Assembly: GCA_030407315.1 (NCBI GenBank)
Contig: JALQPE010000519.1
Span: 1 to 64,000, forward strand
Direction of reading: 5' to 3'
Length of the DNA stretch: 64,000 nt
Source of the DNA: Asparagopsis taxiformis
Taxonomy: Eukaryota; Rhodophyta; Florideophyceae; Bonnemaisoniales; Bonnemaisoniaceae
Below, piece after piece: positions 17,983-55,180 of the stretch. Within the stretch, counting starts at the first letter, position 1. Each line of letters begins with the position of its first letter. The notes under the pieces are model-generated. The model did no database searches. It worked only from the letters and a program-made list of their open reading frames with translations, and was not told the DNA's origin. The position numbers and the translations under genes were made by a program.

Positions 17983-20900
17983 ATGGCCGGAAGCGACACT
18001 GAGCGCGCTGCGGAACCAAAGGATACCGTCGAAAGCGTTGCAGAGAGACTTGCAACGACGGTAGGCGGTGATAAAACACCCTCCGGAGGTTCTGCTGATG
18101 GAGGGGCTCCGTCTGCAGCGGGAAGGGAGACGGCAGATAGCCAGACACCCATTCAGGGAGCAGACGCTGCCATGATAGAGGCAGCAAAAACCCTTGGTGA
18201 TATATCACCATCTGGGAAAAACACTCTACGCTTTCCATCTACTCCTGGGACGGTGAAATCGAAAAACAGGGAGAGGTCTAACGTCCGTGAAGGCGAGGGG
18301 AGTCCTGCTGGCATGGAAGCATCAGAAGAGTCCGTGATGGGGATTGACATCAACATTGTCGAATGCAGGGCTGAACCTAAAATGATCAATCCGCTAGATG
18401 TTGCCAAACCGGAATCAACTTCTCGTCTTGTGCAGGAGGCCAGAGTGCGCGATCTGGTCAGCAAAATATCTACCGAGGGGTTTCTGGAAACTGGCACCCG
18501 AATGACCATCTGTGAAACAATGGGGTCAGACGGACGGAAGAAACTGCAGTGCATTGATGGAGGTCATCGTATCAGCGCTTTGCAGTCGATTGTGGAAAAC
18601 AAACCGACAGTTGCTGATCGATGGAGACTGAGGAGCATTAGCGTTGACTTCATCCGACCACCTGGAACCCGTGAAATGTTTCATCCTCTTGAAGTGATGC
18701 GAATATCGCAGAAGCTGAACGAAAAGACTCATGACGTGATAGAAGTTTCTATTGCTGACCACGTCTGTACGGTCATGAAGTTCATGATGATGAAGGGCTT
18801 GATGAAGGCGAAGGTAAATGTGTGCACAAAAGTTGTAGTCGAGAACAAGGTCATTCCAGGTTGTCAGGAAGGAATCATGATGAAGTACGTTTCGATTGCG
18901 CAGGGCTTCGGAGACGTAAATAACCCGGCGTTCGAACATTGGTCAGCTATCCCAAGTCGATTTGCAACTGAAACTAGTCCGCCAGACTCGAAGAATATGC
19001 AGGGATGCACTGTGGACGTCCTATTCGCTTCTGCGTTTCGAAAAGCTTCGGTGGACACCAAACTTGTCATTCTAGAGCTCACTGCAATGTGGACGATGTG
19101 GAAACGTAGGAAAGGAGATGGTGGTATAAGTCTAAAGACATGCGCGCAAAAGTGGTGCTACAGCATGTGTGAAATATATGACATACTTGAGAAAGCTGTA
19201 CGGAAAGAAAACTCCTGGCATTCCTCACCTCATCCATGTTTCAGGAAGTTACATGAAGTACCGGAGCCAGGTGGACGAACACGAAAAACCATACGATATC
19301 GCATTTTGACTGTCCTCAAAGATTTCTATCCTTCCGACGCACCAACTGGGAGAGGTATACGTGCAGCATTGACGCGGTCTATGATGAAAGAAATCCGTTA
19401 TGTGGTTTTCAACGGCCCAATTCTATCGGATGACTCTCTCGACCATTCCGTCGCGCCTGAAATAGGTGTGCAGGAAAGGCGGACTAGGCGAAAATCCTTG
19501 GAAGGGAATACTGCACCTCAACCACGACAACAATCCGCATCGTATGGTGATACTTCAAATGCTGCCATTGATCGCTCGGACGTGGTACAGAGTCCAAATG
19601 TACTTACCCAACAGCAGACACAGGGCAGTCTGGAAATATCGGATCGTGTTAACGCTGAGGTCGGTGCTGCAACACAGGTTGGTGAAGAGGCGACAGGGAA
19701 AGCGGCAGATTCCGAAAGCGCAAAGCAGGTTACAACGGACCGCGCAGTGCCTACTGCGCCAACCGAGAACAATTCTTCGAAACCTGGAGATTGTGAAGTT
19801 GGGGATGTGTTGCAGAAGAACGTAGGAACTCAAGAGCTTGAACCAACTGGTGCAAATCGAGGAAGAAATGACCACGGTGATGAAAATGACCTGCAACAAT
19901 CACCTAGCCCAGTGGCAGCCGGAAGTGCCACGCTCAGACCAGAGCAGGGTGGAAAGTCGCCGGCGAATATGTCAGTTGGTCATCCAAGAACTGGTCGAGA
20001 TGGTGAAGGAGGTCCTGAATCTAGGAAGAGCGATGGGTCTGGAACGAAAGATGTCCGCGAAGAATGTCCCGAACATTCTTCTGGAAGGACAACGGAGGAC
20101 CCGATGAAAGGTGTACGAAATCAGGGTGATGGCACTGGAGACGCTATGTTATCTACAGCGGATGTCGGCCTACCTGTTTTACCTGAGCTGGAGGACACGG
20201 AAACACCTGTTACCAGTTCTACGCCTAGGAAGTTGATGAAAGCCAAGCACAGCAGTGGTTTCGTGCCCTTAAAGGCAAAGCCGAGGAATACGGAGACGCC
20301 GCCAATGATTCTACGATCCAAACGGAAATTGGTGGATGTCACCCCTCAAGAGGTTATTGACCTGGTGGGAGAGGATACCAGCAGGCCGCGGCAGAAGAAG
20401 AAGCAAAAGATGCGTGAAGACGCAAATTTGCAATCCGGCAAAGACGCTGCAGTCCACGCGGTTCAAGGAGGTCAGTATTCGGACAGGCAACAAAATGATG
20501 TCCCTGACAAAGATGTGGAGGAAGGTATAGAAGCGAAACTGCCTGTTATCATTCATCCCGACAGTCGAATGAAATACTATGTGAATGGGAAACTGGTCGA
20601 TACGCTTCGAGCCGAGGTCGCTGAAGCAGCAGCGAGTGCCTATTCGGCACAAAATGTTTCCGCTGAGTTTCTCTCGAGGGCTTATTTCCGAGAGAAACGA
20701 AATGAAATAGACTTGGTTGGGTTTACAATTCTGGACGGAATATTCAAGTCTTCTACTACTGCAGATGCGATCCACGAACTGCTTCATTTTTCTGCGTTGT
20801 TTGAGGAACGTCTCGAGGATGCCAAGAAGAACTCTGAATCCGGTGACACCCGCAGAGATCCGGACTGGACACCGTGGTGCATGGCTATGATGGATGGGAA

Positions 20901-21504
20901 AAACTCTGATGAAGAAGGTGAGAAGGGCAGAGGAATCTTTATAACAAAGCGGAAGAGCTTATGTGATGACCTCGAGGATAACAATAATAATCTCTATCGG
21001 AAGAAGATGATTGTTGAGCTCGGTCTAGGTATTTGTGCGGAAGGTTTGGAATTGAGGACTAGTGGGAAGGACCCGATGGCCTTCCCCAGCACTGGAACTA
21101 CTTTAGTGCTGACTGGAGAGCGGACTAAACCTCGTGCTGGACATACAGACTATGAAGTGGGAATCGATGAAGTTAACAGTCCCCCTTCTCCGCCATCCTA
21201 CTTCATGATGTCAAGCGGCGCAGATGGATTCGGCCTCGTGCTTGCACCCTACAGTCATGTCTGTTTATCCCATCCCAACAGAGAGTTATACAGAGTTCCA
21301 ATGAAGAGGTGTGAAGTACCACCATATTCTGTTCTTGTCTGCCGAGGGGATGTTTATCACCACGAGGAAGGATTTGAGAGCAATAAGGGTCTTCAATACA
21401 AGTTCCCGATCCGATCTCACATATTCCTCAAAACTGAGCAGCATCAAAGTGAAGAAGGAGAATATGTCGTTGGACATTGGGAGGGCAATTCGAAATTGAA
21501 GTGA
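17983..21504 (+). CDS. ParB/Srx-like domain fused to 2OG-Fe(II) dioxygenase, 1173 aa
   Basis: An uninterrupted frame begins at an ATG. After about 100 low-complexity residues comes a ParB/sulfiredoxin-like fold with its signature IDGGHRISALQ (D192 to R196). A middle block shared with the next gene ends near residue 400, followed by a long disordered acidic/polar linker to about residue 840. The C-terminal part has HxD at H1054/D1056, the strand PPYSVLVCRGDVYHH (H1126) and R1144 in PIRSH, the H-D-H-R order of 2OG-Fe(II) dioxygenases. ParB-type modules bind DNA or nucleotides; 2OG enzymes of the AlkB and TET/JBP groups oxidise DNA bases. Oxidation of DNA is therefore plausible but unproven, and protein substrates are possible. 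AATAAA lies at 21561. The intact paralogue at 22.5 kb supports a selected function. Confidence 0.7.
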   Translation: MAGSDTERAAEPKDTVESVAERLATTVGGDKTPSGGSADGGAPSAAGRETADSQTPIQGADAAMIEAAKTLGDISPSGKNTLRFPSTPGTVKSKNRERSNVREGEGSPAGMEASEESVMGIDINIVECRAEPKMINPLDVAKPESTSRLVQEARVRDLVSKISTEGFLETGTRMTICETMGSDGRKKLQCIDGGHRISALQSIVENKPTVADRWRLRSISVDFIRPPGTREMFHPLEVMRISQKLNEKTHDVIEVSIADHVCTVMKFMMMKGLMKAKVNVCTKVVVENKVIPGCQEGIMMKYVSIAQGFGDVNNPAFEHWSAIPSRFATETSPPDSKNMQGCTVDVLFASAFRKASVDTKLVILELTAMWTMWKRRKGDGGISLKTCAQKWCYSMCEIYDILEKAVRKENSWHSSPHPCFRKLHEVPEPGGRTRKTIRYRILTVLKDFYPSDAPTGRGIRAALTRSMMKEIRYVVFNGPILSDDSLDHSVAPEIGVQERRTRRKSLEGNTAPQPRQQSASYGDTSNAAIDRSDVVQSPNVLTQQQTQGSLEISDRVNAEVGAATQVGEEATGKAADSESAKQVTTDRAVPTAPTENNSSKPGDCEVGDVLQKNVGTQELEPTGANRGRNDHGDENDLQQSPSPVAAGSATLRPEQGGKSPANMSVGHPRTGRDGEGGPESRKSDGSGTKDVREECPEHSSGRTTEDPMKGVRNQGDGTGDAMLSTADVGLPVLPELEDTETPVTSSTPRKLMKAKHSSGFVPLKAKPRNTETPPMILRSKRKLVDVTPQEVIDLVGEDTSRPRQKKKQKMREDANLQSGKDAAVHAVQGGQYSDRQQNDVPDKDVEEGIEAKLPVIIHPDSRMKYYVNGKLVDTLRAEVAEAAASAYSAQNVSAEFLSRAYFREKRNEIDLVGFTILDGIFKSSTTADAIHELLHFSALFEERLEDAKKNSESGDTRRDPDWTPWCMAMMDGKNSDEEGEKGRGIFITKRKSLCDDLEDNNNNLYRKKMIVELGLGICAEGLELRTSGKDPMAFPSTGTTLVLTGERTKPRAGHTDYEVGIDEVNSPPSPPSYFMMSSGADGFGLVLAPYSHVCLSHPNRELYRVPMKRCEVPPYSVLVCRGDVYHHEEGFESNKGLQYKFPIRSHIFLKTEQHQSEEGEYVVGHWEGNSKLK

Positions 21505-21814: not shown

Positions 21815-22095
21815 CCGGGTATAAAGTTGGGTGGGTGTAAACCAAGTGCACCATCCCCATTGCCTGGGGGTACTCCGGATAACCTCAACCAATGGCGTTG
21901 GTGCACCTGGCGTTTGGGAGGCCAAAATAATACCCGGTATTATTTTGGGTCGGTATAGACCAAGTGCACCAACCCCATTGGCCGAGGTTGTCCAAACTAC
22001 CACCGGCCAATGGCGTTGGTGCACCTGGCGTTTGGGAGGCCAAAATAATACCGGGTATTATTCCTAGTTTCTCAAGCCAGGTGCAGTGCACTCAT
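21815..22095. repeat. Palindromic repeat locus (two AATAATACC-S-GGTATTATT cores)
   Basis: Cores lie at 21924-21946 and 22044-22062. Around them CCAATGGCGTTGGTGCACC and its inverse (GGTGCACTTGG, CATTGG) form larger nested inverted repeats, so the array is core, shared arm, core. It lies between the two ParB-2OG genes. The locus is non-coding; short open frames through it read repeated peptides only because the DNA repeats. Confidence 0.9.
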
Positions 22096-22528: not shown

Positions 22529-25393
22529 ATGGCTCCTCGCACTCGCTCCAAACCCTCTGCCCCCGCCCCTGCTCGCGCTTCGACTCGCGGTCGGGCCTCC
22601 GCTCGCTCTCGCGCCCCTTTTCGCAGCCCTGGTCACGATAACTCTGTCACCGCCGAGGTTCAGTTGTCAGACTGTCCCAAAGCTGACCACAGGCTGTCTC
22701 CCTTGGATTTGCACAGACCTCCCCTATTCTCTCGTCATATTAGGGAAGGGAGAGTGCTTGAGCTGAAGGAGAAGTTCCTGAGGGAAGGATTCACCTCCTC
22801 AATCTCCCGAATCCTTGCCTGCAAAATGCTCCTTCCCAGTGAAGGCAGCACAACCCCCACCCTTCAAACGTTCTACATCGATGGTGGCCATCGCGTTGCG
22901 GCTCTCCAGAAGTGCATTCGTGAAGACCCGGAAGGGCAACATCCGTATGCTGCTTCATTCAGGAACATCGATGTGGCTTTGATCAGGCGCCCAGGGACAG
23001 AAGAAGTTTCCGATGAGTACTTCACACCTTTTGAAGTACTCGGGCTGTCCATTCAAGCAAACACACTCACACATGATGTTGCCCTTGTTTCTTTGGCAGA
23101 CCGAGTGTGTTCTGTGGTCCAACTTCTCACGACCAAGGACATGCTAGGTGAACCGAATCGGAAGTGCATTCAGGTCATCATGGACAGCCAGTTGTCGATA
23201 TCGAAACTGGGCTACCAAGCCATCAACAAGCACGTGACTGCTGCGAAAGGCTTCCGGACTGTGAACAACAAAGCGCTTGAGTTCTGGAGTTCCGTACCGA
23301 GCATGTTCACCAAGGAAATTCTCGCTGCGGAACAGGAAAGGGCCGTTAAAGAAGGCCGTGACATCAACGACGATGTCTTCAAGCAGTCCGTAGACATGTA
23401 TGGCTGCAACATGGATCTCGTTTTCATGGCAGACTTCCGTCGCGGCTCGGAGTATCAGCAAAGGTTCATCTTGCTCATAACAGCTCTCTGGACACGCATG
23501 CGAGATCTGCGTCAGTTGAGTAGGACGACAAGAGGATTTGGTAATCCTTTCGTTCGTGTTTTGATTGAAGTTTTCAAGATGTCCGAGCCGGTTGCTGCTC
23601 ACAAAATGATGGAGCCTCCGCTCGAGCATTTCTACTCCGAGCTCAAGAACACTGGGTCAGGAAAGGAGACTGTTATTGCGAACAGTATCGCGGAGACCCT
23701 CCTGCACTTCAGTACCGACGATAACAGCGGTACGAAGCATGCCCTCGTCTCCGACGAAATGTATGAGCAGCTTCGCTTTTCCACGGGCGTTGTGGACATG
23801 GAAGAAGACCAAAGGGTCATTGTTCATAATGAACAGCCATCTGAAGATGCGCCGAAGCCATCTACGCCCCAATCAGATGAGCCTTCTACCCCTTCTACCC
23901 GTTCTGGTCCTACTCCTCCTGCCCCTTCTACCCCTCCTGCTCCTTCTACCCCTGCTCCTCGTGCTCATTCTACCCCTTCTACTCCTTCTAACCCTTCTAC
24001 CCCTTCTACTCCTGCTCCTACTACCCCTCCTCCTCCTGCCACTTCCGTTCCCGCCCCTTCCACCCCTCCTGCTACCCCTCCTGCTCCTGCCACTTCCGTT
24101 CCTGCAGTTGAGCAGGCTCAAGGAACCCCTGATGCCACTGTGGCAGGTTCTGAGAAGCAATTGGGATCTGTTCTCCTCCGTCTCCCTCTCAATGCACCAC
24201 CGCTTGCGGTGAATGAGCCAGTCGAGACACTTCGCAGGTCGAAACGGCAGAGAACGGAGAGTCTACGGGTTGGCGGCGACAGTCAGGCAGAGTCGGAGGT
24301 AGAAGAAGAGTCCGAAGAGCCCCTTCCGAAGCGCAGAAGACTGGAAGTTAACCGTACGGTTAAACGTTCAACCGAGGAGATTCCATTGTTCAGCGATGAG
24401 CAGGAAAATCCCCTCCCCGACAGGGTAGTCGATGAACGGATTATGGATATTCTCCCGAACACCATACCGTCAGACTCTAGGGTCAAGTACTATATCGACA
24501 GCAAGCTGTACGAAACAATCCGACAGGAGATTTTGAGTGCAGCTGCTGCCGATATGAATTGTATAGCGTGCAGTGGTCCAGCTTGCTGTGCAGAGAAGTT
24601 CTTTGCAACAGCTAGGTCAACTCTCAATCTCTTGGGTGCCCATGTACTCAGTGGTATCTTCCGTTCTTCGACTGTGGGCAACGCAGCACATGAACTGTTC
24701 ACGTTCTATGCCCAGAAGTTCAAACCTGTTCATTCGTCTGCTGAAGACAGTTCCAATGATCCCTGGCATCAGATTCGAAACAAGGGTGAGGTAACAGCAG
24801 AGCAACAGGCCTCTCGTTTGGGAAGGTTCTCTATCTCAAGGAAGAAGATTTGCGACGATCTCGAGCAGATGGATGAACATCAATTCAAGAACAAGATGAT
24901 TCTCGAGGTCGGCAAAGCAATCTGTGCCGAGCTGATGTACTTGGGCCTAGGAATCCATGAGCCTGTGGCCTTTCCTAAAACCGGTTTACGTCTTTTGCTG
25001 ACCTCTGATGGTGCTCCAGATCAAGACTTGCACACAGACCTACCGGTGGTCATCAATGATTCCGATTTCCCACCTGGAAGATCGTACTTTCTGATGGCAA
25101 GCGCGGCTGATGGGTTCTGGCTTCGTGGAGCGTATTTCAGCCACGTCTGTTTGACGTGTGCAGACGCTGAGAAGTACAAGACGCCTGTTATGGACATCTA
25201 CGTGCCACCGTATTCTCTCTTCATCGGTCGTGGTGACTTCTACCATGGAGGCAAAGGATTCAGTAGTTCAGCGGAAAATCGCCTAACATATGGTCTTCCG
25301 GTTCGTTCTCATCTCTACCTTTTAAGTGACGAAGAAGAATTGGCGGATGCTATCGAAACAGTCAACTACTGGGATGCACCTAGTGCGCGATAA
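22529..25393 (+). CDS. ParB/Srx-like domain fused to 2OG-Fe(II) dioxygenase, 954 aa
   Basis: A paralogue of the gene at 17983 in the same orientation, with a shorter linker. After a basic Ser/Arg/Pro start comes YIDGGHRVAALQ (D118 to R122), then a block aligned with the paralogue (NKALEFWSSVPSMF). A Pro/Ser/Thr-rich linker (residues about 455-530, repeats of PSTPS) follows, then a basic stretch (LPKRRRLE) that could be a nuclear signal. The C-terminal domain opens with SDSRVKYYIDSKL and carries H835xD837, YSLFIGRGDFYHGG (H906) and R926 in PVRSH. Conservation of all candidate iron and 2-oxoglutarate ligands in both copies, with free divergence elsewhere, argues that the enzyme fold is real. 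Substrate unknown. Confidence 0.7.
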   Translation: MAPRTRSKPSAPAPARASTRGRASARSRAPFRSPGHDNSVTAEVQLSDCPKADHRLSPLDLHRPPLFSRHIREGRVLELKEKFLREGFTSSISRILACKMLLPSEGSTTPTLQTFYIDGGHRVAALQKCIREDPEGQHPYAASFRNIDVALIRRPGTEEVSDEYFTPFEVLGLSIQANTLTHDVALVSLADRVCSVVQLLTTKDMLGEPNRKCIQVIMDSQLSISKLGYQAINKHVTAAKGFRTVNNKALEFWSSVPSMFTKEILAAEQERAVKEGRDINDDVFKQSVDMYGCNMDLVFMADFRRGSEYQQRFILLITALWTRMRDLRQLSRTTRGFGNPFVRVLIEVFKMSEPVAAHKMMEPPLEHFYSELKNTGSGKETVIANSIAETLLHFSTDDNSGTKHALVSDEMYEQLRFSTGVVDMEEDQRVIVHNEQPSEDAPKPSTPQSDEPSTPSTRSGPTPPAPSTPPAPSTPAPRAHSTPSTPSNPSTPSTPAPTTPPPPATSVPAPSTPPATPPAPATSVPAVEQAQGTPDATVAGSEKQLGSVLLRLPLNAPPLAVNEPVETLRRSKRQRTESLRVGGDSQAESEVEEESEEPLPKRRRLEVNRTVKRSTEEIPLFSDEQENPLPDRVVDERIMDILPNTIPSDSRVKYYIDSKLYETIRQEILSAAAADMNCIACSGPACCAEKFFATARSTLNLLGAHVLSGIFRSSTVGNAAHELFTFYAQKFKPVHSSAEDSSNDPWHQIRNKGEVTAEQQASRLGRFSISRKKICDDLEQMDEHQFKNKMILEVGKAICAELMYLGLGIHEPVAFPKTGLRLLLTSDGAPDQDLHTDLPVVINDSDFPPGRSYFLMASAADGFWLRGAYFSHVCLTCADAEKYKTPVMDIYVPPYSLFIGRGDFYHGGKGFSSSAENRLTYGLPVRSHLYLLSDEEELADAIETVNYWDAPSAR

Positions 25394-26077
25394 TCTGCAA
25401 GAATACTGCTTTGCCTCTCCCTCTACAGGCAGCATCTGCCAATCCTAAGCTAGCTTCGGTAGTATACTTCCTTTACCACAACTAAATCTACTCCTATTCA
25501 TGACTTTGAAAATATTAGCACGGTCAGTCTACTGCACTATTAGAGTTCCTCTACCTCTCACCCCGCATAGCTTCTACACCCTACATCGTACAGACTGATC
25601 TCTTTTCCTTTCCTACATGCATGGCACAGTTTTGCAAGACTGCCACAATTCCACATCACTCCCAAGGTCTTGGATTGTTCTTCTTAGTATACTAACTATA
25701 GTTGAGATGCAAACCTGGCAGCCAATGGCAGAGCTGCACTTGGGCTGGCCACACACAAAATAATACCGGGTATTATTTTGGCATGGCAAAGCCCAGGTGC
25801 AGCACTATCATTGGCTGCCGCTGCGTTCATGACAGCCAATGGCAGAGCTGCACTTGGGCTATGCCATGCCAAAATAATACCGGGTATTATTTTGGCATGG
25901 CAAAGCCCAGGTGCAGCACTATCATTGGGCGTGGGCTGACTGGCACCGCTCAGCAAATGAAAGTCTGTTATTATCGCTCAGGTAGATTGTAGTATTACAA
26001 CGTTGTACGAGTTCAGATGCAAGACTTTTTATTGCTGATGGTACTCTTGATATCTGTAATTGGACGCCTAAACTGTC
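25394..26077. other. Spacer between convergent genes, with palindromic repeats
   Basis: No gene. It separates the convergent 954-aa gene (plus) and the methyltransferase/SET gene (minus) and is dominated by the palindromic locus at 25715-25935. Confidence 0.6.
25715..25935. repeat. Palindromic repeat locus, two cores
   Basis: Cores at 25757-25779 and 25871-25893; the second extends to a 39-base perfect palindrome at 25863-25901 (GCCATGCC arms). Outer arms read GCCAATGGCAGAGCTGCAC on one side and GTGCAGCACTATCATTGG on the other. Organisation matches the 21.9-kb and 45.4-kb loci although flanking bases differ. Confidence 0.95.
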
Positions 26078-29000
26078 CTACTTCTCTGCAGTCCAGTAGC
26101 GCGATCCATAGTCAACGAATATCGCTTCCCCAGCTCGAACATCTACTACAACCTGCGCTAGGATGAGATCAGGTTTTGCTACTGCATACTTGAAGTCGCA
26201 AGTAGGATTGACGTCTTTGTGAACTCGGAACTCTGCATTTTTTCTGCGTTGCACATTTGCAACTCTCTCCATTCCGTCAATGGTCCTACTGTCGTTGAGG
26301 TAGCTGCAGACATTGTATTCCGCTGGTACAAGATATATCTTGTCTACCGGTGCTTCTTCTCCGATGACACTGGTCTCCATCTCCATGTTGAAGTTTTGGA
26401 ATCTTTCACCAGTACAACCGAACCCGTCCGGTCCGTACAAGCGACTGCGTTGCGGTTCATTCTCCCCAATCTTCCCGTATAAAATTGTCCCATTATACCA
26501 TCCAACAACAGAGCCCCTCTCTAAATCTTCTGCGGCAAAAACCCCCAATCCTCCCTCTCAAACTGTCGATGCAGCAACAATAACGTTGTGAAAGGAGGCA
26601 TCTACTGCAAGCATCATCTCAGGGTCAACGGAGAAAACCTTGCCTAAATCTTCTACGCCCCATTCATTCATTGGGACTTCGGCAAGTCTTCGGAGCATGC
26701 TTTGATCCCGCGCAACAGAGGAGACAAATCGCAACATATGCAGTGGTAGTGAAGATACCGACGGGAATCCATCAGGCGCATCACTTCGATGTCGAAGTCT
26801 TTCACTTCCTACATTGCTCCTTATCGAGTAATTCCATTCTTTGTTAGCGAGAATACTCGATATGTCATTTTTGGTTGCCTCCCCAAAAACTCCATCTCGA
26901 CCTTGCCTAACAAAGCAATCCAGCAACAACGGCTGAGCTGATCCATGGCATGTGGCGTCTTTTTCACATCCAATAAACTTGCGATACAGACCATCTCTCA
27001 TTGTCATGCAAGCTATTGCAGTAGAATACGTTCCGGAGAATAGATCTACCACAATGTCTCCTGGCTTTGAAAACCTTGAAATAAGCTCTCCAAGTATGGA
27101 CAGAGGCTTCTGCTCCGCACGTAGCCTTTTGTCTTCGAAGTTCAATGACTCACCAGGTCCGAGCTTTGGGCAGTTGTCGATTGCGTTCACGTACCCTGGA
27201 TGTCGTGAAAGGTCACGGTTATGCAAAGAATAATCAACCATTTCAAACGCGGCAGCTCCCATCCCACGTTTGAAACTGTGCACAACAAACTCGTGAATGT
27301 TGTGTAATGAACACGATTTGTTCATTGGGTTTTGGATGAATACGTAGGGACGACGGCTTAGAATGAGAGGAACATCGTCTGTACGCATGGATTGTTCCCC
27401 GCTTTCTGCATTTTGAAGAGCTTCTCCCCACCCAACCAACTGTTTGATACTGGAAAATATCAGGGCATGTCCTCCAGGGCGCAGCATTCGAGAAATGTCC
27501 TTTCCAGTACGAAACATTTGTGCGCTATTGATGTCATCATAGTCTGAATTGGTCTTGCCTTTCTCCCTCCGCGTGTTGAAGGGTGGATCGGTGAGCACAA
27601 GTTGTGCTTGTCCATCAATAGTATTCCCTGAAAGCATGCCAATGGAATCAGTGTTAACCTGGTGCACTAACCTCGAGGCTGTACAGTTGTAAGCCACGCA
27701 AAATCTCTTCATGACCTTTTTCAATTGCACAATATGATCCGGTACCCCCTCTTCCTCACCCACTGCCTCCGCTGACGGTGTATCCTCCGCAACATCTTGC
27801 ATAACCGTGTCCATTGCGGACGAAGCCCTCCCATCCATGCTGGATGTATACTGGGATCCAGAGTCATTGGTAGGTTTCCTTCCACCTGTACCTAAACGGC
27901 GAGTGCTGTGCTGCATTGATTCATTCGACTCAAGACGATCTCTTTCTCGAGAAAGAGATCTGGATGCTGCGTTGCGCTGTTCAGTCTCGTAGAGAATTTT
28001 CAAGTCGCAGACATCAACTGGCTTCACACGCATTTCACGGTTCCAGTTCTTCCATACCTTGAGTCTTTCGTGATCATCCAATGCGATGGATTGTTCTATT
28101 CTTGCTTCGATGAAGGCGTTCAATCCGAACCGGTCAGGCTGATGGAAAACTTTAGTGCGCAGCCCTTCCATCTGGTTCGTACTTGATCCGAATACATCAA
28201 TGCCTATCATATAGTCATACACAGACACTAGTACGGCTTCTGTCAAAGACCTCAACCTTGCATCAACAGAGATATCCAAAGTGCCTGGATAACCTGCATT
28301 CTCGCGGAGTTTCACTACCGGGGACGGAAGCAGAAGATCTGAGTAGTGGTCAGGATGTGCCCACCCGTCAGTACGATTAGCAAGACAGATGAATTGGAAT
28401 TTCTCAGAGTCGAAAACCATGTATGGGCGACACATCATGTAGGCGCTTTCGAAGCCCAGAATCATCGCTGTTGTATCCCAGGCAGACATGACCCTTTCCA
28501 AAACGGCACCCACAGACTCTCCGTTTGCTCTTGTGCGCTGGAAAGGGGCGAATGTAGAAGTCTCTGTATCCCTCCCAGTTCTACGACGCTTCCTACCCCG
28601 GCGAATGGGTGCATTTCTGCGTCTAGTGAGGGCAATGTGCACAAATGAAATCATAAACATCAGCCTTCCAAATACTTTGTCTTCTTCTGTTAATGTTCTA
28701 CTCTGTGCACTTCTTCCAGAACGAAAATACTCACAGGTGAGGACTTCGCGACACAATGGAGAAGCAATTTCACCACTTGTAGACATCCCAAACAACTGCT
28801 CGCCGACTGATGCTCTTTTCTCGAGAGATGTGGGAAACTCCTTCATCGCAAAATTGTTCTGAACTTCCACCGGCCTTCCCCATACAATACAGAACAACTG
28901 CCACAGACAGCGAACCATTTTGGGATTGGGTTCTTCTATGCGACTGTAGGGGCGAAGCACACGAAGAATTGACAAGCAACTCTCGTACTGTGGCTGCCTC

Positions 29001-29587
29001 AGCACAGTTTCTGCCAAATCTTCGCGCTGAGATCCCACGGCGAGCCATCGCCTAATGGATGGCATATTCACGTCGCGAATTGTAACCATGCTTGAGCTTC
29101 CTTGTTTTTCACCTGCGTTTCGCTCCCAGTACCCATCTCTAAGATCCAAAGTAAGATTCAGGTACTCAATGAAAGTCATCCTCTTCTGCCTGGATGCCAT
29201 ATCGTTCGCGTTTGATGCTTTCACACTATCTAGAAGGAAAGCAGCACTTGTAATCGGAGATATGTCGACTTCTTCTTCAATCATAGGAACAGTGAAATCA
29301 CACGGAAGCTCACCGTTCTCTATGAGCTTGATTACAGCTTTCGAACGATGCGCACCACCCAGCACCTCTACCTCACCGGCAATGATCCGACCGGTAATTG
29401 GGTTGTTGTCATTCTAGCCGTAAACCTGAATGCTCTCGGCAATAACATCGACGTGCCTGTAGTCGATTTCTCGAATCTCGACATATCTTTTGATCTTGAA
29501 TAGGTCGATGTGCAATAGCCCATTGCGCCGCTCACCATGAAGGGGACGCCGAGAGGTGCTCGCTGGATTTCTCTTCTCAGAGGCCAT
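26078..29587 (-). pseudogene. ParB-like / DNA methyltransferase / SET fusion with two nonsense codons
   Basis: Read from an ATG at 29587, the frame would encode 1,169 residues but is broken by TAG at codon 58 (29414-29416) and TGA at codon 1010 (26558-26560). Both stops lie inside conserved sequence. The first is in the ParB-like box, just before VLGGAHRSKAV. The second lies in the linker directly before the SET domain (GGLGVFAAEDLERG). In order: ParB/Srx-like box; helical middle; methyltransferase motif IV DPPFNTRRE (27578-27589), LRPGGHALIF, and motif I-like DLFSGTYSTAIAC with FIGCEKD; then SET with NVCSYLNDSR and VDYGSRYW. Motif order IV then I is that of beta-class N6-adenine/N4-cytosine methyltransferases. 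SET domains methylate protein lysines. Each stop could come from one C-to-T change (CAG, CGA). Readthrough is conceivable. Confidence 0.75.
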
Positions 29588-31340: not shown

Positions 31341-31379
31341 TATGGCTGCCGGTGCCATTGCTGTATCTTGAGTTCTAAC

Positions 31380-43495: not shown

Positions 43496-43514
43496 CCACT
43501 AAGACAAAATTAAA

Positions 43515-45188: not shown

Positions 45189-45795
45189 AACGTTTTCTAT
45201 CTTTTCTAGATGGGTCTACAAGACTGTTCAGAATTAGCCAACCTCGATTAAGTCGATGGTATCCATCGATACATGCTCCGTATCTTTCTCGCCTGTTCCT
45301 TCGTCCAGGGACTGTCTGCATTCTGTAACAATGATTGCCCTCCACTTGGCAAAATATCCCTGAAAATAATACCGGGTATTATTCTTAGGTTTCGTCCAGG
45401 GATCGCCTGTAGTCGGTACGAATGATTGCCCTCCACTTGGCAAAATATTCCTCAAAATAATACCCGGTATTATTTTCCGCACTACTCTGCCAGGTGGAGC
45501 TACGGCATTGGATGGGACTGCACAGGCCCCGAAGCTACTAGAGGCGTGCTCAATGACAGGGTAAAACTCTTAACCGTAGTAGACATGATGCTTTCTAGTC
45601 GCAGAGTGAGCTGAAAAATAAGAACGATAGCTATTGTTTCCAGTACACCATGTAGTACGTAGCATGCTAGGGTGCACCTTTTCCACTCATATCCTAGACA
45701 GTTTCATATCTAAAGGTTTCTATTTCTCCTCAGTCTGCCTCGTCGTAATTATTTTACTTCAAAGGTTATGAAACTTTACTTATCCGCTTCCATTA
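45189..45795. other. Spacer between convergent genes with palindromic repeats
   Basis: Non-coding DNA between the convergent 462-aa and 507-aa genes; its middle is the palindromic locus at 45325-45515. Confidence 0.6.
45325..45515. repeat. Palindromic repeat locus, two cores
   Basis: Cores at 45365-45383 and 45454-45476. Arms read ATGATTGCCCTCCACTTGGC twice on the left and GCCAGGTGGAGCTACGGCAT on the right. The arm sequence differs from the other loci but keeps the CCAATG...TSCACYTGG pattern, which suggests that this pattern and the core are what is maintained. Confidence 0.9.
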
Positions 45796-47319
45796 TCAAT
45801 CTTCCTCATCAAGGAAAACTTCAACGTAGCTTTCACTCCCATCTTCTTCATTTCCATGTCCGCTATCCTCCTCAAACGCGGTACTACGCTGTTCCAAGTG
45901 TTGTTCATCGAATTTTTCGTTAGTAATTGTCAGTACATCTTCGCAGAGATGCCTCTTACAGATTCGGTCACTCGGCAACATCGCCTTTCCTAATTGTTTG
46001 AGCTCGTCTTGTACACTTTCTTCGAAGGTCTGACCTGATCGTACCTTGAAAATTCCTAGAATCCCGGAAGCGATTGCATAGACAAATCTGAGTGAATTGC
46101 AGGAACGTCGCAGGAAAACCATTCTACTCGTGCATTGAAGGAAAGCAATTGTAGTGTTCAGGGCTACCTCCAGGATATTGATTCTCCTTCGAATCATCCT
46201 TTTGGCCACACATCCCGATATCTCGACTTCGTACTGAATGATGACAACCATCTCTTTCCGCTCAGCGATGAATTGTATCAAGATCTCGGAATTCTTGTCA
46301 TCCACAACTTTCCGTTCCTCAGGCCTTAGATTTCCGTTGGTCACACGGGTATCGGGGATAACATCCATATCTCGAATGAGATCGTGAGTTGGAAACTCGA
46401 AAGTGATAGATGCGTCCGTTTCCAACACTAGAGCGAACCCCAGTTCGACAAGGAATCGATGGCGCACCTGCTCTCTAGACTTGTTCAGGAAACCGAGCAC
46501 CTTTGTCAGCGCAACTTTCGTAACAGCCAAAGATATTTCACGCTTGCTCAACTGTCCACCATTTCCATCTGTTTTCCTCCGCTTCCTAGCCCCTCCGTCA
46601 ATGCTTCCTGCAGGCTGGTTTCGGCCATCGCCAGTGGCACCATAAACAACTTCTTCGATTATTTTGTCCGGAATGTACTTGTTCTCCTTCCAGACGTTGA
46701 ACGCATTCGAATCGCGTCCAGAGCTCGAGCCTTCCACTGTACGGCATGTACCCGACTTTTCCTTCTGAATGTTCCGCAGGAGAGACATCACCACTTGGAA
46801 TCGAAGCTCGATGTTGTTCTTCCCGCTGTTGGATTGGAACACATCCCTCTTGTCATTGCTCTGCTTCGCAAACATCATTGCAGAGAGCAACCTGCAACCA
46901 CGGAGGTCGTAGATTCCTTGGTTGGTGTAAATTGTCGCCCCAGCATCAATCTTGTCGACCAGCAAAGGTACAACAGTTCCAAATACTGCACACAGAAAAT
47001 TGTAAGAAAACGATAGTTCTGCTGACTGCGAGATGCGCAAACAGTCCCTGTCCTTGTCAGTCATCCCCTTCTTCGAATTGCCCTGACTCTGCTGTAATAA
47101 ACCATCACAGATGTCTTTCACACCCTGTAATTCCGTTACTATAAACTCGACGCGACTCATCAGCTTTTCGATTTGCTGGCGTTGGGACGTTCGATCATCG
47201 TCGATTTCATCCATCCTCTCCCCAATACGACGAACTTCCCCAGTCACTGTCCTGAATCCCTCTCGAATAATCCCTGCTAAGCAGTAATTTGGATTTTCCT
47301 CACGACGCTGAGATTCCAT
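45796..47319 (-). CDS. Uncharacterised 507-aa coiled-coil element protein
   Basis: An intact minus-strand frame from an ATG. Residues about 20-75 form a heptad-rich coiled coil (GEVRRIGERMDEIDDDRTSQ ...). A globular alpha-rich part follows, a basic patch (GGARKRRKTDG) near 240 could direct nuclear import, and the tail is highly acidic (EEDGSESYVEVFLDEED). No known domain is recognised. Its C-terminus has a homologous relic at 50098-50214 (MEEDGGDAEYVKVFVDDEI), again convergent with a 461-aa relative, so the pair is part of a recurring module. A structural or DNA-binding helper of the element is a guess. Confidence 0.65.
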   Translation of the reverse strand: MESQRREENPNYCLAGIIREGFRTVTGEVRRIGERMDEIDDDRTSQRQQIEKLMSRVEFIVTELQGVKDICDGLLQQSQGNSKKGMTDKDRDCLRISQSAELSFSYNFLCAVFGTVVPLLVDKIDAGATIYTNQGIYDLRGCRLLSAMMFAKQSNDKRDVFQSNSGKNNIELRFQVVMSLLRNIQKEKSGTCRTVEGSSSGRDSNAFNVWKENKYIPDKIIEEVVYGATGDGRNQPAGSIDGGARKRRKTDGNGGQLSKREISLAVTKVALTKVLGFLNKSREQVRHRFLVELGFALVLETDASITFEFPTHDLIRDMDVIPDTRVTNGNLRPEERKVVDDKNSEILIQFIAERKEMVVIIQYEVEISGCVAKRMIRRRINILEVALNTTIAFLQCTSRMVFLRRSCNSLRFVYAIASGILGIFKVRSGQTFEESVQDELKQLGKAMLPSDRICKRHLCEDVLTITNEKFDEQHLEQRSTAFEEDSGHGNEEDGSESYVEVFLDEED

Positions 47320-49539: not shown

Positions 49540-50097
49540 TTAAGTGAGTGGCTCGACTGAATCAATGGAGTGGCTCGGAGTGGGTGGGTAGGTGCTGAGT
49601 AATGGTGAGAGTCTGGGCTGATAATAAGATGGATTACAGACGGGTGTGCTGCGTATAAATGTTAAGTCTACGTAGCATGGTTGTACAGTCAATAGAAACA
49701 CGGTGCAAAAATATTTTCTTTAAAAAATTATGTAAACTGCGGGCTTAGATATGATCAGATTTTATCGGGAACTACCAATGAGGCTGCCTCTGCGCTTGAT
49801 GGCAGAATCACATAGAGTGGCAACAGGCTGTCCGCACAACAGACCAAAAAGGTAGCGACAGACTGTCAGACACTGTATTTGAACAGTGCTACGGGCTGAA
49901 AAATACGTGGAATTTCAGTGCTATTCCAGTCAGTCATTATTTTCTCCTCATTGGCTACAATTCAATCAACATTTTCTGGGTCAATCAACATCTCAAAATT
50001 TTCCGATTCTGGTTTGAAAAGTACGTTCTGTTCATATCGAATTCAGTGTTAGGTTTTGACTATATCGCGTGATAGATATGAAGAACTGAATGTAGAC
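49540..50097. other. Spacer with dispersed repeat R, copy 3
   Basis: No gene. At about 49945-50055 it has CTCATTGGCTACAATTCAAT...CCGATTCTGGTTTGAAAAGT, ACGTTCTGTTC, the third copy of the repeat seen at 30.2 and 43.5 kb; here it precedes the relic of a 507-like gene. Confidence 0.7.
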
Positions 50098-50214
50098 GAT
50101 GGGGGGGGGGAATCAGTGCTGGAGGAGAGCTTCAGGTCTATGGAAGAGGACGGAGGAGATGCAGAATATGTGAAGGTATTCGTCGATGATGAAATCGAGA
50201 ATGAAGGGGAGTAG
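50098..50214 (+). pseudogene. C-terminal relic of a 507-aa-like gene
   Basis: The frame ending at TAG 50212-50214 reads SVLEESFRSMEEDGGDAEY then VKVFVDDEIENEGE, alignable with the acidic C-terminus of the 507-aa protein (FEEDSGHGNEEDGSESYVEVFLDEED). It begins right after an 11-base run of G. The rest of the gene is not visible upstream. It is tail-to-tail with the 461-aa gene, as in the intact pair at 43.8-47.3 kb. Confidence 0.6.
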
Positions 50215-50469
50215 TATCGGATGAAACCAGTTTCGGTGTAGTAGAGGAAGAATGAAGAAATAAAATTTCTGTTGAGTTGAATTTTGTAATAGATGGAAGT
50301 AGATAGATGCGAGACATCAGGAAGCCAGTCAGACGATAGTGTCAAGTCGAAGGAAAAGCGCAGAGAAAGGTAGTGGAATAGTCGAAGTAGGAAGGGGCGA
50401 GGGTATCCGTCTTTACTAGAAATTGATGGCCACAGGAGCTCTAGAATGGAATACCCAGGAACAGGATAA
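50215..50469. other. Spacer of the second convergent pair
   Basis: Nothing recognised; short non-coding gap between the relic and the 461-aa gene. No AATAATACC palindrome is present, unlike the equivalent spacer at 45.4 kb. Confidence 0.4.
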
Positions 50470-51855
50470 CTACGGATAGGTGTGCTTTATCATTTTTGCT
50501 CCGGACTGCAGGTGGCAGGTGGAGGAGAGGGTGGGTGGGTGGGTAGTGTCTGAATCCGCATTGAAGCCAAGACGAGAGATAGCCTCATAGCCAATGTCTT
50601 CAAGCTCCTGGCATATAGTAGTACCACTGAAAATACAGCAAGGTAAGCGTAGATGTAGTGTACCAAACGTCTCTGCGGTTGATAGAGGCTGGAAAGTGCT
50701 GTAACAAGCTCGGCGCTGAATACGTCTCCACAGTAACGAAAACGTTGCTCCATAGGTAACAGTAGCCTTATCACGTAGGTGGAAAGAGTCCACGATGCTA
50801 GACTGTGATAGTTGGCTAAGACATAGGGGATGTAAAAATGTGTTGTTGACGTGGTCAAACTCGTAAGAGTCTCTGCAAAGAACTGTCATACGTTGGTGTG
50901 GGCTGGACAGGACGTAAGCAGATGAGCCGACGAGAAATGCGGAAGAAGGAGCATCATGAGAGCAATCAACGTCGACTAGATTTCCTAAAATTGGGACAAT
51001 CGATGAGCTGCCTCCATCGCGTTCCGCCCTGCTCTTCACCAATATTTTCTGGAACCCGTGTTGCGAGGTACCTATGGAGTCACATAGTGCCTGAAAGGTG
51101 GGGAAAATGATGGAAAGATCCGACTCATTTCCAGAGGGAAAGGTGATGTCCTCAAAGGACGGCTGGAAGAGAACGTCACGATTCTCTTTCGCCTTGCATT
51201 GAATGGCAATAGTGCGGAATTGAGCAAGGGAGCAGTCAGCCTGTACTCTGATTTCTTCTTGCGATGTTTGTCGCATTCCCCTGGAGTGCTCGGATTTTGT
51301 CATCCGGAGGGAGAGGGGCTTGTCCGTGTACACACCAAGCTTCTGAAACAGAATGCTACATACAGTCAGAGCAGAGGAGGTCATGGAGCTGTTGGAATCG
51401 AATGGAGGGGGAAGAGGATGTTTGGCAGCTGACTCCAGCTTTTCCAATCTTGCCAGCATTTCTGCTATGGTCTTCTTCATTTGATCCGCAGTGCAATCTT
51501 GAAGGATGCCGCGGTGGCGGTGGCGAGTGTGGTCAATGCCGTAGTCCGGGTCTCTCTCTGCTGGGGATGCAGGTGAGTCCATACTGCGAAGCTCACCACT
51601 TCGCCACAGGAGAACCCTTCCGGAATCCTTGTCGACGAGCTCGTTACGATCTGAAATCTTGACTTGAGAAAGGGTAGAGTCGAAACCATATTCAGCTTTG
51701 TATTCGAGCAATGCATGGAGGAATGGGTCTGTTTCAGTCTTGACCTGAGTAATTTCCTTGACGATTGCAGACCACCACACAATTTTTCGTTTCCTCCCAA
51801 ACGGCCGAAGTTCCCATTGAACTTCTATAACGTCGTTTGGAGCGAGAGGAAGCAT
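50470..51855 (-). CDS. Uncharacterised 461-aa element protein
   Basis: An intact minus-strand frame from an ATG, homologous to the 462-aa protein at 43800 along its length. It keeps VIEVQWELRPFGRKRKIVWW at the start, DKPLSLRMTKSE and ADCSLAQF in the middle, and CIFSGTTICQELEDIGY near the end. Identity is moderate, so the two copies diverged well before the present arrangement. Preservation of a full frame here, while the neighbouring 507-like and methyltransferase genes are broken, suggests recent activity or selection on this gene. Function unknown. Confidence 0.7.
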   Translation of the reverse strand: MLPLAPNDVIEVQWELRPFGRKRKIVWWSAIVKEITQVKTETDPFLHALLEYKAEYGFDSTLSQVKISDRNELVDKDSGRVLLWRSGELRSMDSPASPAERDPDYGIDHTRHRHRGILQDCTADQMKKTIAEMLARLEKLESAAKHPLPPPFDSNSSMTSSALTVCSILFQKLGVYTDKPLSLRMTKSEHSRGMRQTSQEEIRVQADCSLAQFRTIAIQCKAKENRDVLFQPSFEDITFPSGNESDLSIIFPTFQALCDSIGTSQHGFQKILVKSRAERDGGSSSIVPILGNLVDVDCSHDAPSSAFLVGSSAYVLSSPHQRMTVLCRDSYEFDHVNNTFLHPLCLSQLSQSSIVDSFHLRDKATVTYGATFSLLWRRIQRRACYSTFQPLSTAETFGTLHLRLPCCIFSGTTICQELEDIGYEAISRLGFNADSDTTHPPTLSSTCHLQSGAKMIKHTYP

Positions 51856-52359
51856 GTTGGGATAGCTATGGGATAGAATTGTTGTATTAGTGAAAGCCTA
51901 ACCGTTACCTTCTGCTAAAGAGTAGTATATACTAGGAGGATTGGAAAGGTGGAGAAGAGATGTTTAGGTGGTGTAGAAATAGAATGGACAATTGACAAAA
52001 TTGACACGTCAGTGTGGATGATGTCTGCCATGAACTGATTGCAGCATAAAATTTGATGTGAATAATCGTTCTAGAAGTGAATGTCGGATGCATACGATTG
52101 GACTACAAAGATACGCTTAGAGATGTTACGCGGCCCAATAAATTGCATGGAAAAATATTTTGAGTATTACTTTAGTATTACATTGATTATTGAGCTAACA
52201 GTCGATGTAGTTATCTTGTAAAGGTTCGGACAGGGGTGGAAAGGAAACAGCCACCGAAGTGCTACCACTCGCTGACACTTTGTTTTAAACAACCAACTTC
52301 TGATTTGCGCCACCCTGGTCAAGCAGCAACCAACTATCCCTTTCTTAAAAACTCTACCT
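51856..52359. other. Spacer between divergent genes
   Basis: About 500 bp, AT-rich, between the divergent 461-aa gene and the ParB-methyltransferase gene. It probably carries both promoters. No defined signal is recognised. Confidence 0.4.
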
Positions 52360-55180
52360 TTGTTCGCCATGGAAGGAACGTTCCACAATCACGGTGAAAA
52401 GCACGACGGATGGGTGTTCATCGACCCCAATCAAGTCAGCAAATTCGTATCGATTCGCGATGTTGATGCAAGTCATGTGGAAGCGCTCATGGAGAGCATT
52501 CGCAACAGCGGTTATGACACAGCTCATCCCGTGACTGGCAGGTTTCGAGAAGGCGTTCTGGAGATATTGGATGGAGCGCACCGCTGCATGGCAATTGTAC
52601 GTGGAATGGAAAAGGGCGTCTTTCCTCCTGGCGTTACGATTCCTATGCGAGAAGAGTCTATCGTGGCGGACACCAACAGCAGTACTGCTATTGTGCTGGA
52701 CCGTGTGAGAGCGACGACATCCAACGACATTGCAGGCCTGCAAAGGCGCATGATGTTTGTTGAGTATCTAATGATCGCCGTTGATCTCAGAGACGAGTAC
52801 TGGGTCCAAAACGGAAAGGACAAGTACCAAGTACGCTCACATTTCGTCTGTGAGGATGGCTGATGTGTTGGGCTGGATCAAATCCTGCGATCCAAGCGGC
52901 CAAATTGCTTCAAGCCTGAGTGGTAAACCGCAGTACAGCTCATGCATGTCTATCCTGGCTGTGCTTCGGCCGTATCACCGAGCAGAAGATTCGAGTTCGA
53001 TTGATTTGCGTCTGTGGCAAATGTTTTGTCATGCATGGGGACTCAATGCAGATATGGGTGATTCTCCGAGGATGGTTGAGTTTCCGAAACAGGTGGGGGT
53101 GACTAGTTCTCGCGCCGTCGAAATGTTTGGCAAGACACCCCGCGGAGAATTGTCCTCTCCACTGAACCGCGAACTGCTTTCGAGCAGGTACTTTCTGGAC
53201 GGCGCTACATCCGACATGCAAGATTCTTTGCAGGCTAGCCAGAAGCGGTTCAGGAGGCTGATGGTTATGATGTGCCAGTGTATCTTGGCTATTCGCAGTA
53301 AGGAGATGGGCAGTGTGCCATCTAGGCGGGCCAGAGCCACATCCGGGGCCATTGGTGGTGGTGGAATGGTTGGAATTGCAACATCCAGTGCGCAAGCCAA
53401 CCAGCTTGGATTTGTTGTCGACCGTGTGTTAGCTGCGTGGGATACCGGGGCAAGAGTGTTGGGGTATGAGGATGTTGAATCGATGTGCTGGCCGTTCATG
53501 GTATTCGATCCTGCGGGCCTTTGCTTCAGGTCACTCCCGAATCGGTCTGATGGCTGCGCGGTCGAGGAGCATCGGAAAAACCTGACCATTGTCCCGAAAA
53601 CTGTAGACAGTGAAAACGGGTTCTGTGCCGACCTTCCAGTGGCTGTAGATGCAAGGCTGCGATCATTGACAAGCGCCTTCCTGCTGTCGATACGCCAATG
53701 TGTCACTGAGGTGAATGTGTTCGCCGAGCGTGGTCAGCTGATGCAGAGACTTCGAGCCTTGCTTTTCGACACTCCTGACAAGTTCGGCTTGAATTCGTTC
53801 ATTCGAGCCAAGTTGAACACGTCTCATGGCCTGGATGGTCAGAGGAGGCTGAAGGCTTGGTTATTGCGAACCCGAGAGCAACGAAAGCTTCCTCTGACCA
53901 TGGATGAGTTGCACAGTCTTGAGGATACGCCCGAGCCTGGCATCCTTGAAGGTGCACCTGTGCAGATGGAAATATCCGCAGCAGTGCCAAACAATGGCAG
54001 CGAGGATATAGAACAGGATAGTCTGGAGCCACAGAGGAAGAAGGCTAGGCTGGAGCGCGGTGGTGGAGAGGACGATAATGCGGCGGTTGCTAGCGAAACA
54101 GCAACAGGAGAAGGTGCGGCCGAGGATGACGCTATGGAGGTTGACACTGTATCGCCTACAGAAGCACCGCTCGTTGAAGTCGGACAGGAAACCAAGCCAG
54201 AATATGTCACCAAGCTGGAAGCTGTGATGGGGCGTTACATTCACACTGTGAATTGTGACGCCACTGATGTAGCCAAAGAGGTGGAGGACAAAATTAGTTT
54301 CCTGGAAGATGGCGTGTTGGAGGACAGTGTTCAGCTTGTGCTCACTGATCCTCCATTCAACACGAGGCGGGAAGGCGGCAGAGAAAACTCGGAGTACGAT
54401 ATTCTGGAGCCGGAAGAGTTGGCGAGTGTTGCGTGTGAAATAGTTCGAGTTCTTCGGCCTGGCGGTCATGCTCTAATCTATTCCAGCGTGCGCCAACTCG
54501 TGGCATGGATGGATGCAATCAGAAATGCCGAGCCTGGCAAGATGATTGTGGACAGTGTTCCAGTCGTGCTATCTCGCCGACCACACAGCTTTACGTCCAA
54601 TCCATCGACGAAAACGTGCACACTGCATAATATGCACGATTTCGTTATCCATGCGTATAAGCGGGGGAAGGGTATGGCTGCATACGATATGGTGGATTAC
54701 AGGTTGCACAATCCGGACATATCGAGGCACCCTGGGTTCACCAACGCGATTGACAACGTTCCGAGGTTGTCGGCTGGTGAAGCTCAATACGATGGGCAGA
54801 ACAACCGACTGCGCCATGAGCAGAAGGCGTTGACCACTCTTCGTGAGCTTCTGGAACGATTTTCGAAGCAGAACGATATCGTGATGGATTTCTTCTCGGG
54901 AACATACAGCACAGCCATAGCGTGTATGGCGTTGAGGGATGGTACGTATCGTCGGTTCATTGGGTGTGAGAAGGAAAAAGGTGCCACGATGCATCGCAGG
55001 AGTGGATACTGCATGCTTTCGTCAGTGAGGTGAAAGCCGGCGATATGGGGGATCTTGCAGCGTGAGGTGGAGAGTATTCTTGGGGACGAGTCGGTACCGG
55101 TTGTCATACCACGGAGTGGTCTGCCCTGGTGGGGTCGTGTCGACATCCTATTGGACGACCCCGGTTCGGGAATAACCAAT
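52360..55180 (+). pseudogene. ParB-like / DNA methyltransferase gene, frameshifted
   Basis: The ATG at 52360 opens a frame with HVEALMESIRNSGYDTAHPV and LEILDGAHRCMAIV (ParB/Srx-like box) that ends at 52863. The coding signal moves to another frame at 52822-52834, where AAGTACC is tandemly duplicated (AAGTACCAAGTAC); the extra seven bases account for the shift. The second frame runs to 55033 with motif IV LTDPPFNTRRE (54347), LRPGGHALIY and motif I-like DFFSGTYSTAIAC. Close to the end, near 54978, the homology moves frame again (CHDASQEWILHAFVSEVKAG). It is closest to the gene at 26078-29587, but no SET domain is seen and the gene is probably cut by the gypsy element that follows. Not functional as it stands unless the shifts are sequencing errors. 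Confidence 0.75.

Follow-up and report, generated by a model that had tools for sequence, protein, structure and literature searches.

We analysed a 64,000-nucleotide stretch of the genome of the red alga Asparagopsis taxiformis (G000:C519:1-64000, hereafter the window), in which five proteins carry a DGxHR-type, ParB-like box. These five box proteins belong to three separate transposons of this one red-algal genome, which we term elements A, B and C. In three of the proteins (M1, M2 and M3) the box is joined to a DNA methyltransferase, and in two (O1 and O2) to a predicted 2-oxoglutarate (2OG)-Fe(II) oxygenase. A set consisting of a methyltransferase-SET gene, two O genes and a partner gene G is conserved in two diverged families, A and C. 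We tentatively propose, with less than even confidence, that A and C carry a self-directed epigenetic kit in which ParB-type modules load the fused enzymes at parS-like arrays and control the element's own silencing or transposition.

Three transposons carry the five box proteins

The elements, the box proteins and the partner genes occupy the following window positions.

10503-48018, element A, a CACTA-like DNA transposon of ~24 kb without nested element B
17983-21504 (+), O1, ParB-like module and predicted 2OG-Fe(II) oxygenase, element A
22529-25393 (+), O2, paralogue of O1, element A
26078-29587 (-), M1, ParB-like module, beta-class DNA methyltransferase (DPPF) and SET, broken in the window copy
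43800-45188 (+), G1, partner gene of A, divergent from M1
30158-43634, element B, nested in A
37767-40727 (+), M2, ParB-like module and beta-class DNA methyltransferase (DPPY), element B
50051-55101, element C (partial), a relative of A cut off near a long terminal repeat (LTR) retrotransposon
50470-51855 (-), G2, homologue of G1, element C
52360-55101 (+), M3, ParB-like module and DNA methyltransferase, element C

We scanned 141 Mb of the genome (3156 contigs) for further copies. It has thirteen phycobilisome matches, 11 of which lie on a single plastid-like contig, as expected of a red alga. Ten copies of A were picked by similarity to O1 and each was fetched in part, so the low diversity of O1 among them is biased. 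Genomic copy lists hold the best-matching 40-50 scored copies per gene, a sample that favours intact copies.

Element A runs from CACTACTG to CAGTAGTG. Its terminal inverted repeats (TIRs) start with CACTA and finish with TAGTG, as in CACTA/EnSpm transposons, and ACTGCCTG is repeated subterminally. Similarity to the window begins or stops at the left end in two copies (L029 and L030) and at the right end in two (L031 and L033). The copy on contig C2634 is flanked on both sides by a 2-bp AC; the window copy has no matching duplication.

Element B has 46-bp TIRs starting with AACACTGGTTTTTGTCTGTAC and a 4-bp duplication, ACAG. All six fetched A copies that reach position 30157 (on C2830, C2761, C2634, C2576, C2263 and C381) jump from there to 43635 without B. 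Positions 30158-43634 are therefore a nested transposon, and M2 lies in a separate element. The remaining four A copies lose similarity at ~28.0 kb (C2885) and ~27.3 kb (C2940) or run into contig ends (C1931 and C217). A tblastx comparison of B with A gave nothing at E 1e-8, and thus no O-like gene in B by that comparison. The earlier note had read the five proteins as a single 37-kb system; this was rejected, as the six A copies continue across the junction without B and no 2OG gene was found in B, the element of M2.

Element C is collinear with A (tblastx). Its left limit, at about 50050-50051, is the point where a B-like terminal repeat ends, and a fuller copy (L037) matches it as far as 55101. 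CACTA-type TIRs were observed at A, the element whose two ends were covered. G1 and G2 share 34% identity over 452 columns, and the G2/M3 pair is arranged divergently in C, like G1/M1 in A.

The two enzyme types co-occur in other copies

O1 is present in all 10 fetched A copies, which were chosen through O1. Starting from M1, 27 of the 40 scored copies have an O1 or O2 copy close by among the matches listed, and the remaining 13 have no O neighbour among them. Where M1 and an O gene are listed on one contig, all 16 M1-O2 pairs fall within 6 kb and all 16 M1-O1 pairs within 7.5 kb.

For element C, the fuller copy L037 (on C2268) contains the end of an M3-SET gene followed by two O-like genes, CO1 and CO2. 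Compared with O1/O2, their oxygenase parts are 40-46% identical and their ParB parts 27-35%. The lists for M3 (best 40) and CO1 (best 50), compared by eye, have four contigs in common. M3 and CO1 are convergent and 2.8-3.4 kb apart on three of them (C2268, C2046 and C2567), and the listed copies on C1830 are 53 kb apart. Co-occurrence of the two enzyme types beyond the window, which the earlier note had put forward as a check, was borne out by the 27 M1 copies and three C loci.

M1, M2 and M3 combine a ParB-like module with a methyltransferase

All three M proteins match the Pfam N6_N4_Mtase domain (PF01555; the three E values are 5.2e-13, 4.2e-11 and 4.9e-16), which upholds the earlier assignment of three box proteins to methyltransferases. 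They have DPP[YF] before motif I, as beta-class amino-methyltransferases do, with DPPF in 4/4 M1-family proteins and DPPY in M2. By this motif they look like N6-adenine enzymes; an N4-cytosine enzyme also falls within the structure-match list for the M2 model.

The window copy of M1 has two in-frame stops, and its box (29345-29359, -) reads GGAHR. The near-identical database protein P0013 has DGAHR at this place and is matched at ~100% by 40/40 scored genomic M1 copies, all of which are intact. P0013 contains PF01555 and a SET domain (PF00856, 25.3 bits against a curated cut-off of 22.4), and SET matches at E 1 or better were found in 4/4 members of the M1/M3 family. M3 (box DGAHR, 52570-52584) shares 43% identity with M1. 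Its window copy has frame changes and a 3' truncation and lacks the SET part, which is present in its close database relative P0014. A viral-contig scan with the M1 family recovered three loci, among them L034, which encodes a ParB fusion.

M2 (box DGMHR, 38196-38210) resembles M1 in the methyltransferase domain only, at 27% identity. In the structure-match lists for the M2 model only the methyltransferase domain appears; no ParB-fold match was seen there, which is not evidence of absence. A PDB search with the M2 box gave no useful match, and a viral-contig scan with the M2 family gave no relatives.

We also observed a second B-type M2 family (18 genomic loci, 61-63% identity, no stops in the match). 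To the right of the A copy on C2761 lies a further methyltransferase family (L033:5035-8082, -), 32% identical to M1 over its C-terminal half. Its N-terminal part has no DGxHR, and it adjoins a 451-codon open reading frame (ORF).

O1 and O2 are predicted oxygenases

O1 (box DGGHR, 18556-18570) and O2 (box DGGHR, 22880-22894) share 37% identity in the oxygenase part and 32% in the ParB part. An HxD...H...R pattern, corresponding to a facial triad and a 2OG-binding arginine, is invariant in 4/4 O-family members. O1 and O2 are thus predicted, from this motif alone, to be 2OG-Fe(II) oxygenases. The earlier claim that two box proteins are joined to 2OG oxygenases stands as far as this motif goes and finds no backing in Pfam, where neither protein has a match at E 1, Tet_JBP (PF12851) included.

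Other searches with the O family were negative. Neither O1 nor O2 had a PDB sequence match at E 0.001, the oxygenase part had no PDB profile match at E 10, and PDB searches with the ParB-like part gave no useful match. A homologue search with O2 over 8000 candidates gave no match at E 0.001; a low-complexity linker may have swamped it. A viral-contig scan found no relatives, and AlphaFold modelling of O2 (two sequences) gave a predicted local distance difference test score of 32, too low for fold reading.

The boxes are distant relatives by profile comparison

The stop-to-stop frames of at least 150 amino acids in the window add up to 19857 residues, in which the exact pattern DG.HR occurs four times, each time in one of these box proteins. 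The five boxes reported earlier are thus all present, with the qualification that the M1 window copy has GGAHR.

We compared profiles built from uncut N-terminal halves of the O (4 sequences), M1 (3) and M2 (12) families and of the phage ParB_N-N6_N4_Mtase fusion L034, with 60 column-shuffled decoys per profile pair. In 6/6 pairs DGxHR is in register, and each pair beats all of its decoys (0/60 reach the observed score; scores 23.3-45.3, decoy maxima 20.1-26.5). M1-phage and M2-phage are strong, O-M2 is intermediate and O-M1 is weakest (23.3 vs a decoy maximum of 21.8). The phage protein itself matches ParB_N at 31.8 bits (Pfam cut-off 26.3). Curated ParB_N (PF02195) matches none of the algal boxes or their database homologues, and an NCBIfam search with the boxes gave no useful match.

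The in-register alignments above all decoys indicate that, at profile level, the boxes are distant members of the ParB superfamily in three divergent lineages. The relatedness check suggested by the earlier note is thereby answered positively, and its idea of one shared ParB-like module holds for the superfamily and fails below that level, where there are three subfamilies. One recent ancestor for all five boxes was rejected, as M1-phage and M2-phage each score above O-M1. The region behind the ParB_N domain is reached by the weak O-phage alignment alone (the phage HTH_ParB match has E 0.19); the M2 model has helices in this region.

Each family has its own palindromes

Palindromes with perfect arms of at least 8, simple sequence excluded, number 22 in the window and 1-3 in each of five first-order random sequences. 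The palindrome units of A and B occupy the following window positions.

17048-17734, degenerate palindrome units (2 mismatches) between the A transposase gene and O1
21922-22062, A palindromes (AATAATACCSGGTATTATT, two copies) between O1 and O2
25719-25934, A palindrome array between convergent O2 and M1, 2 units of ~114 bp each
34849-35391, B palindrome array, CATGTGCACAATGATTGTGCACATG and variants
45300-45476, A palindrome array between convergent G1 and Q (an ORF of A), 2 units of ~91 bp each

The A palindrome, AATAATACCSGGTATTATT, has six exact copies in the window, all in A and all between genes. Genome-wide it has 2333 sites, counted inside or outside A copies alike, and its reversed control has 0. 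Element C carries the palindrome TTTTTTACCSGGTAAAAAA, whose inner 17 bp have 3237 genome-wide sites (again inside or outside C copies alike; reversed control 0), and also a 39-bp palindrome. The C palindromes occupy intergenic places equivalent to those in A, and the palindromes of the two families have the core TACCSGGTA in common.

The inner 21 bp of the B palindrome CATGTGCACAATGATTGTGCACATG occur at 40 genomic sites (reversed control 0). For 28 of these, the contig also has a B-type M2 among the matches listed, and in 28/28 cases the palindrome lies upstream of that gene, at a distance of 2.6-2.9 kb; the contigs of the remaining 12 have no M2 among those matches. Conversely, 26 of the 28 such B-type M2 copies have the B palindrome on the same contig.

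Among the first places listed for the A palindrome is C19:27340-30179, with 25 tandem units of ~118 bp, a satellite-type array expansion.

A possible self-directed epigenetic kit

The proposed kit of A and C, both read as large CACTA-type transposons, would consist of two ParB-2OG oxygenases, one ParB-DNA-methyltransferase-SET protein and the partner G. The ParB-type N-terminal modules, each made up of the DGxHR box for nucleotide binding and the part that follows it, would recognise the element's own palindrome arrays, as ParB does parS. From there they would bring the enzymes fused to them onto adjoining DNA of the element, perhaps in the form of a nucleoside triphosphate (NTP)-dependent clamp. 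The methyltransferase would then mark the element's DNA, most likely with N6-methyladenine (6mA), the SET domain would mark local histones, and the 2OG enzymes would act on the same stretch, where they would remove or oxidise a methyl mark carried by DNA or chromatin. Overall, the element would control its own silencing or transposition. In favour of this proposal are the gene set kept in both A and C, the close spacing of M1 and O genes, the intact copies, purifying selection on O2, the ParB profile matches, the palindromes of all three families and the invariant HxD...H...R and DPPF motifs. We infer site recognition by the modules, clamp loading, nucleotide dependence, substrates, targeting and purpose, and likewise the escape from silencing and timing of transposition that the earlier note had suggested. 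Element B would be a simpler, separate version with a methyltransferase and an array; no oxygenase was found in it.

A more detailed form of this proposal is an epigenetic editor of the ParB-parS kind. Here NTP-gated clamps would load at the family-specific arrays and travel along the element with their cargo, a 6mA methyltransferase-SET writer in one case and a 2OG eraser in the other. The element would set its own chromatin state, with no 5-methylcytosine (5mC) machinery detected in the genome. The diverging A and C palindromes would insulate the two families. We regard this full version as unlikely.

Do the two enzyme types oppose each other, as first described? Such opposition is at most putative: the methyltransferases look like N6-adenine enzymes by motif, the oxygenases' substrate is a matter of prediction, and the genome yielded no C5-cytosine methyltransferase. 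The search gave 0 PF00145 matches in 141 Mb (control 10/14), in six unspliced frames, from which a heavily interrupted gene could escape. This result speaks in favour of an amino-methyl mark, for example 6mA, and makes a TET-type role less likely. A genome search with Tet_JBP also gave 0 matches; its control was silent, and it is hence uninformative. Given the lack of a PF00145 match and the DPPF/DPPY motifs, it is unlikely that a TET eraser is paired here with a writer of 5mC.

The same motifs and the 0 PF00145 matches favour a reading in which the enzymes do not oppose each other, as do the Tet_JBP result, with its silent control, and an oxygenase part that matches no known family. The methyltransferase would write 6mA, SET would write a histone mark, and the 2OG enzymes would have a different substrate: methyl-lysine in histones, some other protein, or a base without a modification. 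2OG enzymes that act on N6-methyladenine exist, so a 6mA writer/eraser pair is possible and counts against this reading. We consider non-opposing enzymes a real possibility that falls short of probable; they are compatible with either targeting model.

The second targeting model retains an anti-silencing or regulatory kit and gives the ParB-like part another role, as an NTP-dependent switch or a dimerisation domain. The palindromes would be bound by the transposase, G or Q, or would act as terminators or insulators. CACTA transposase-side proteins bind subterminal repeats, which counts for this model. The arrays lie between convergent gene pairs (O2/M1, G1/Q and M3/CO1), and their units are long imperfect inverted repeats. 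The helix-turn-helix (HTH) part of the modules is putative, given the weak O-phage alignment and the phage HTH value above. A ParB-fold survey (PMC12704722) describes binding of ATP or GTP by ParB folds that do not belong to ParABS, and some of these have no HTH. On the other side, each of the three families pairs a ParB-type enzyme with its own palindromes, and in B the spacing between palindrome and M2 hardly varies. We think a switch or dimerisation role possible and somewhat doubtful.

Alternatively, the methyltransferase-SET protein might serve to silence competitors, be they other transposons or loci of the host, and the oxygenases might protect their own element, in an addiction-like arrangement at the epigenetic level. 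The insertion of B into A and the different arrays of the families would fit such competition, but the arrays are inside the elements and point to action in cis. We judge this arrangement improbable.

Finally, the genes could be accessory and without function, and the boxes chance matches or decayed relics. Broken window copies of M1 and M3 and the L033 methyltransferase family without a box are in keeping with this, as is the result for M1 and O1 in a test of distinct substitutions relative to the window copy against 500 neutral placements. O1 (2 synonymous/2 nonsynonymous, 192/500 placements) and M1 (7/24, with 6 more involving stops, 329/500 placements) gave no selection signal, and the A transposase was borderline (12/16, 28/500 placements). 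In O2 (9 loci), by contrast, synonymous changes are in strong excess in both the ParB part (22/7) and the oxygenase part (12/3), which 0/500 neutral placements reach in either case. Purifying selection thus acts on both parts of O2. Intact frames in 40/40 scored M1 copies and the same gene set in two diverged families also oppose a lack of function, and no stop lies in the match of 46/48 scored O2 copies and 50/50 scored CO1 copies. The O2 signal and the conservation largely refute this last explanation, which we regard as very improbable.

Relation to known systems

ParABS partition systems combine ParB with parS or with tandem sopC-type arrays. Like them, the algal elements carry a ParB-superfamily module together with palindromic sites, some of which form tandem arrays; binding is putative in the algal case. 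They differ in that enzymes are fused in place of partition functions; no ParA was found, and none was searched for. Phage ParB_N-N6_N4_Mtase fusions (PMC12704722, part covered; L034) likewise have a ParB-type module at the N terminus and a beta-class amino-methyltransferase behind it. The phage fusions are prokaryotic, however, and have no SET domain and no oxygenase partner, and the main text of that ParB-fold survey does not contain 'oxygenase', 'dioxygenase', 'transpos' or 'alga'.

Fungal DNA transposons, EnSpm/CACTA elements included, carry a TET/JBP 2OG dioxygenase gene, proposed to permit escape from methylation-based silencing (Kojima 2025, PMC12730594, part covered). Elements A and C resemble them as DNA transposons with a (here predicted) 2OG dioxygenase gene. 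In contrast, O1 and O2 match no Tet_JBP model, and the host has no C5-methyltransferase match. The words 'ParB' and 'adenine' are absent from the main text of that paper, and no DNA-methyltransferase cargo was noted in the part covered. It also cites HarbingerS/MuDR elements of Phytophthora that carry SET genes and, from plants, the VANDAL anti-silencing proteins, through which transposons regulate their silencing sequence-specifically. The HarbingerS/MuDR elements share with the algal ones a transposon-borne SET methyltransferase, but the covered part of PMC12730594 mentions neither a ParB module nor a DNA methyltransferase paired with an oxygenase for them or for VANDAL.

The bdelloid rotifer N4CMT (PMC8885841, part covered) is another bacterial-type amino-methyltransferase in a eukaryote, tied to histone methylation on transposons. 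N4CMT differs as a host gene that helps silence transposons, with an SPPY motif and N4-methylcytosine as its product. The algal M genes are borne by transposons, have DPPF/DPPY motifs and, in the M1/M3 family, include SET in the same protein.

In the open literature searched, which leaves most subscription papers outside, we found no description of a ParB-oxygenase fusion or of a transposon with this gene set. Transposons with one demethylase-like gene or one SET gene were already known. What differs here is that one element combines a DNA methyltransferase-SET fusion with two oxygenase-like proteins, that every one of these proteins has a ParB-type module, and that the element brings palindrome arrays of its own. 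Should the modules indeed bind these arrays, a eukaryote would be using ParB-type targeting to modify DNA and chromatin, and the elements would offer a natural model for epigenetic editing confined to a locus. One could also test whether methylation in this red alga is largely the work of parasites in its genome.

Other features of the elements and their surroundings

Three further genes belong to elements A and B.

13089-16790 (+), predicted CACTA/EnSpm-type transposase of A, 1233 amino acids
41690-43495 (+), DUF7869 protein of B (PF25273, E 8e-48)
45796-47319 (-), Q, uncharacterised ORF of A

The A transposase has no Pfam match. By eye it contains GDYPA...GHTSNTPCHSC, in which CHSC is C(2)C-like, without a profile match. 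This is compatible with the C(2)C motif described for transposases of the EnSpm group (PMC12730594, part covered). Q is 98.8% identical in both A copies fetched that far right (L031 and L033). The DUF7869 protein is likely the transposase of B.

A perfect 46-bp palindrome lies at 12194-12239, between the A left end and the transposase gene. Rfam and tRNA searches gave no useful match. Element B contains RING/zinc-ribbon and NB-ARC gene fragments (30469-31332 and 32339-33034, -), possibly captured host genes. Around the DNA transposons are LTR retrotransposon coding regions (404-2149, 5570-6655 and 58342-62517), of gypsy and copia types as named by ORF reading.

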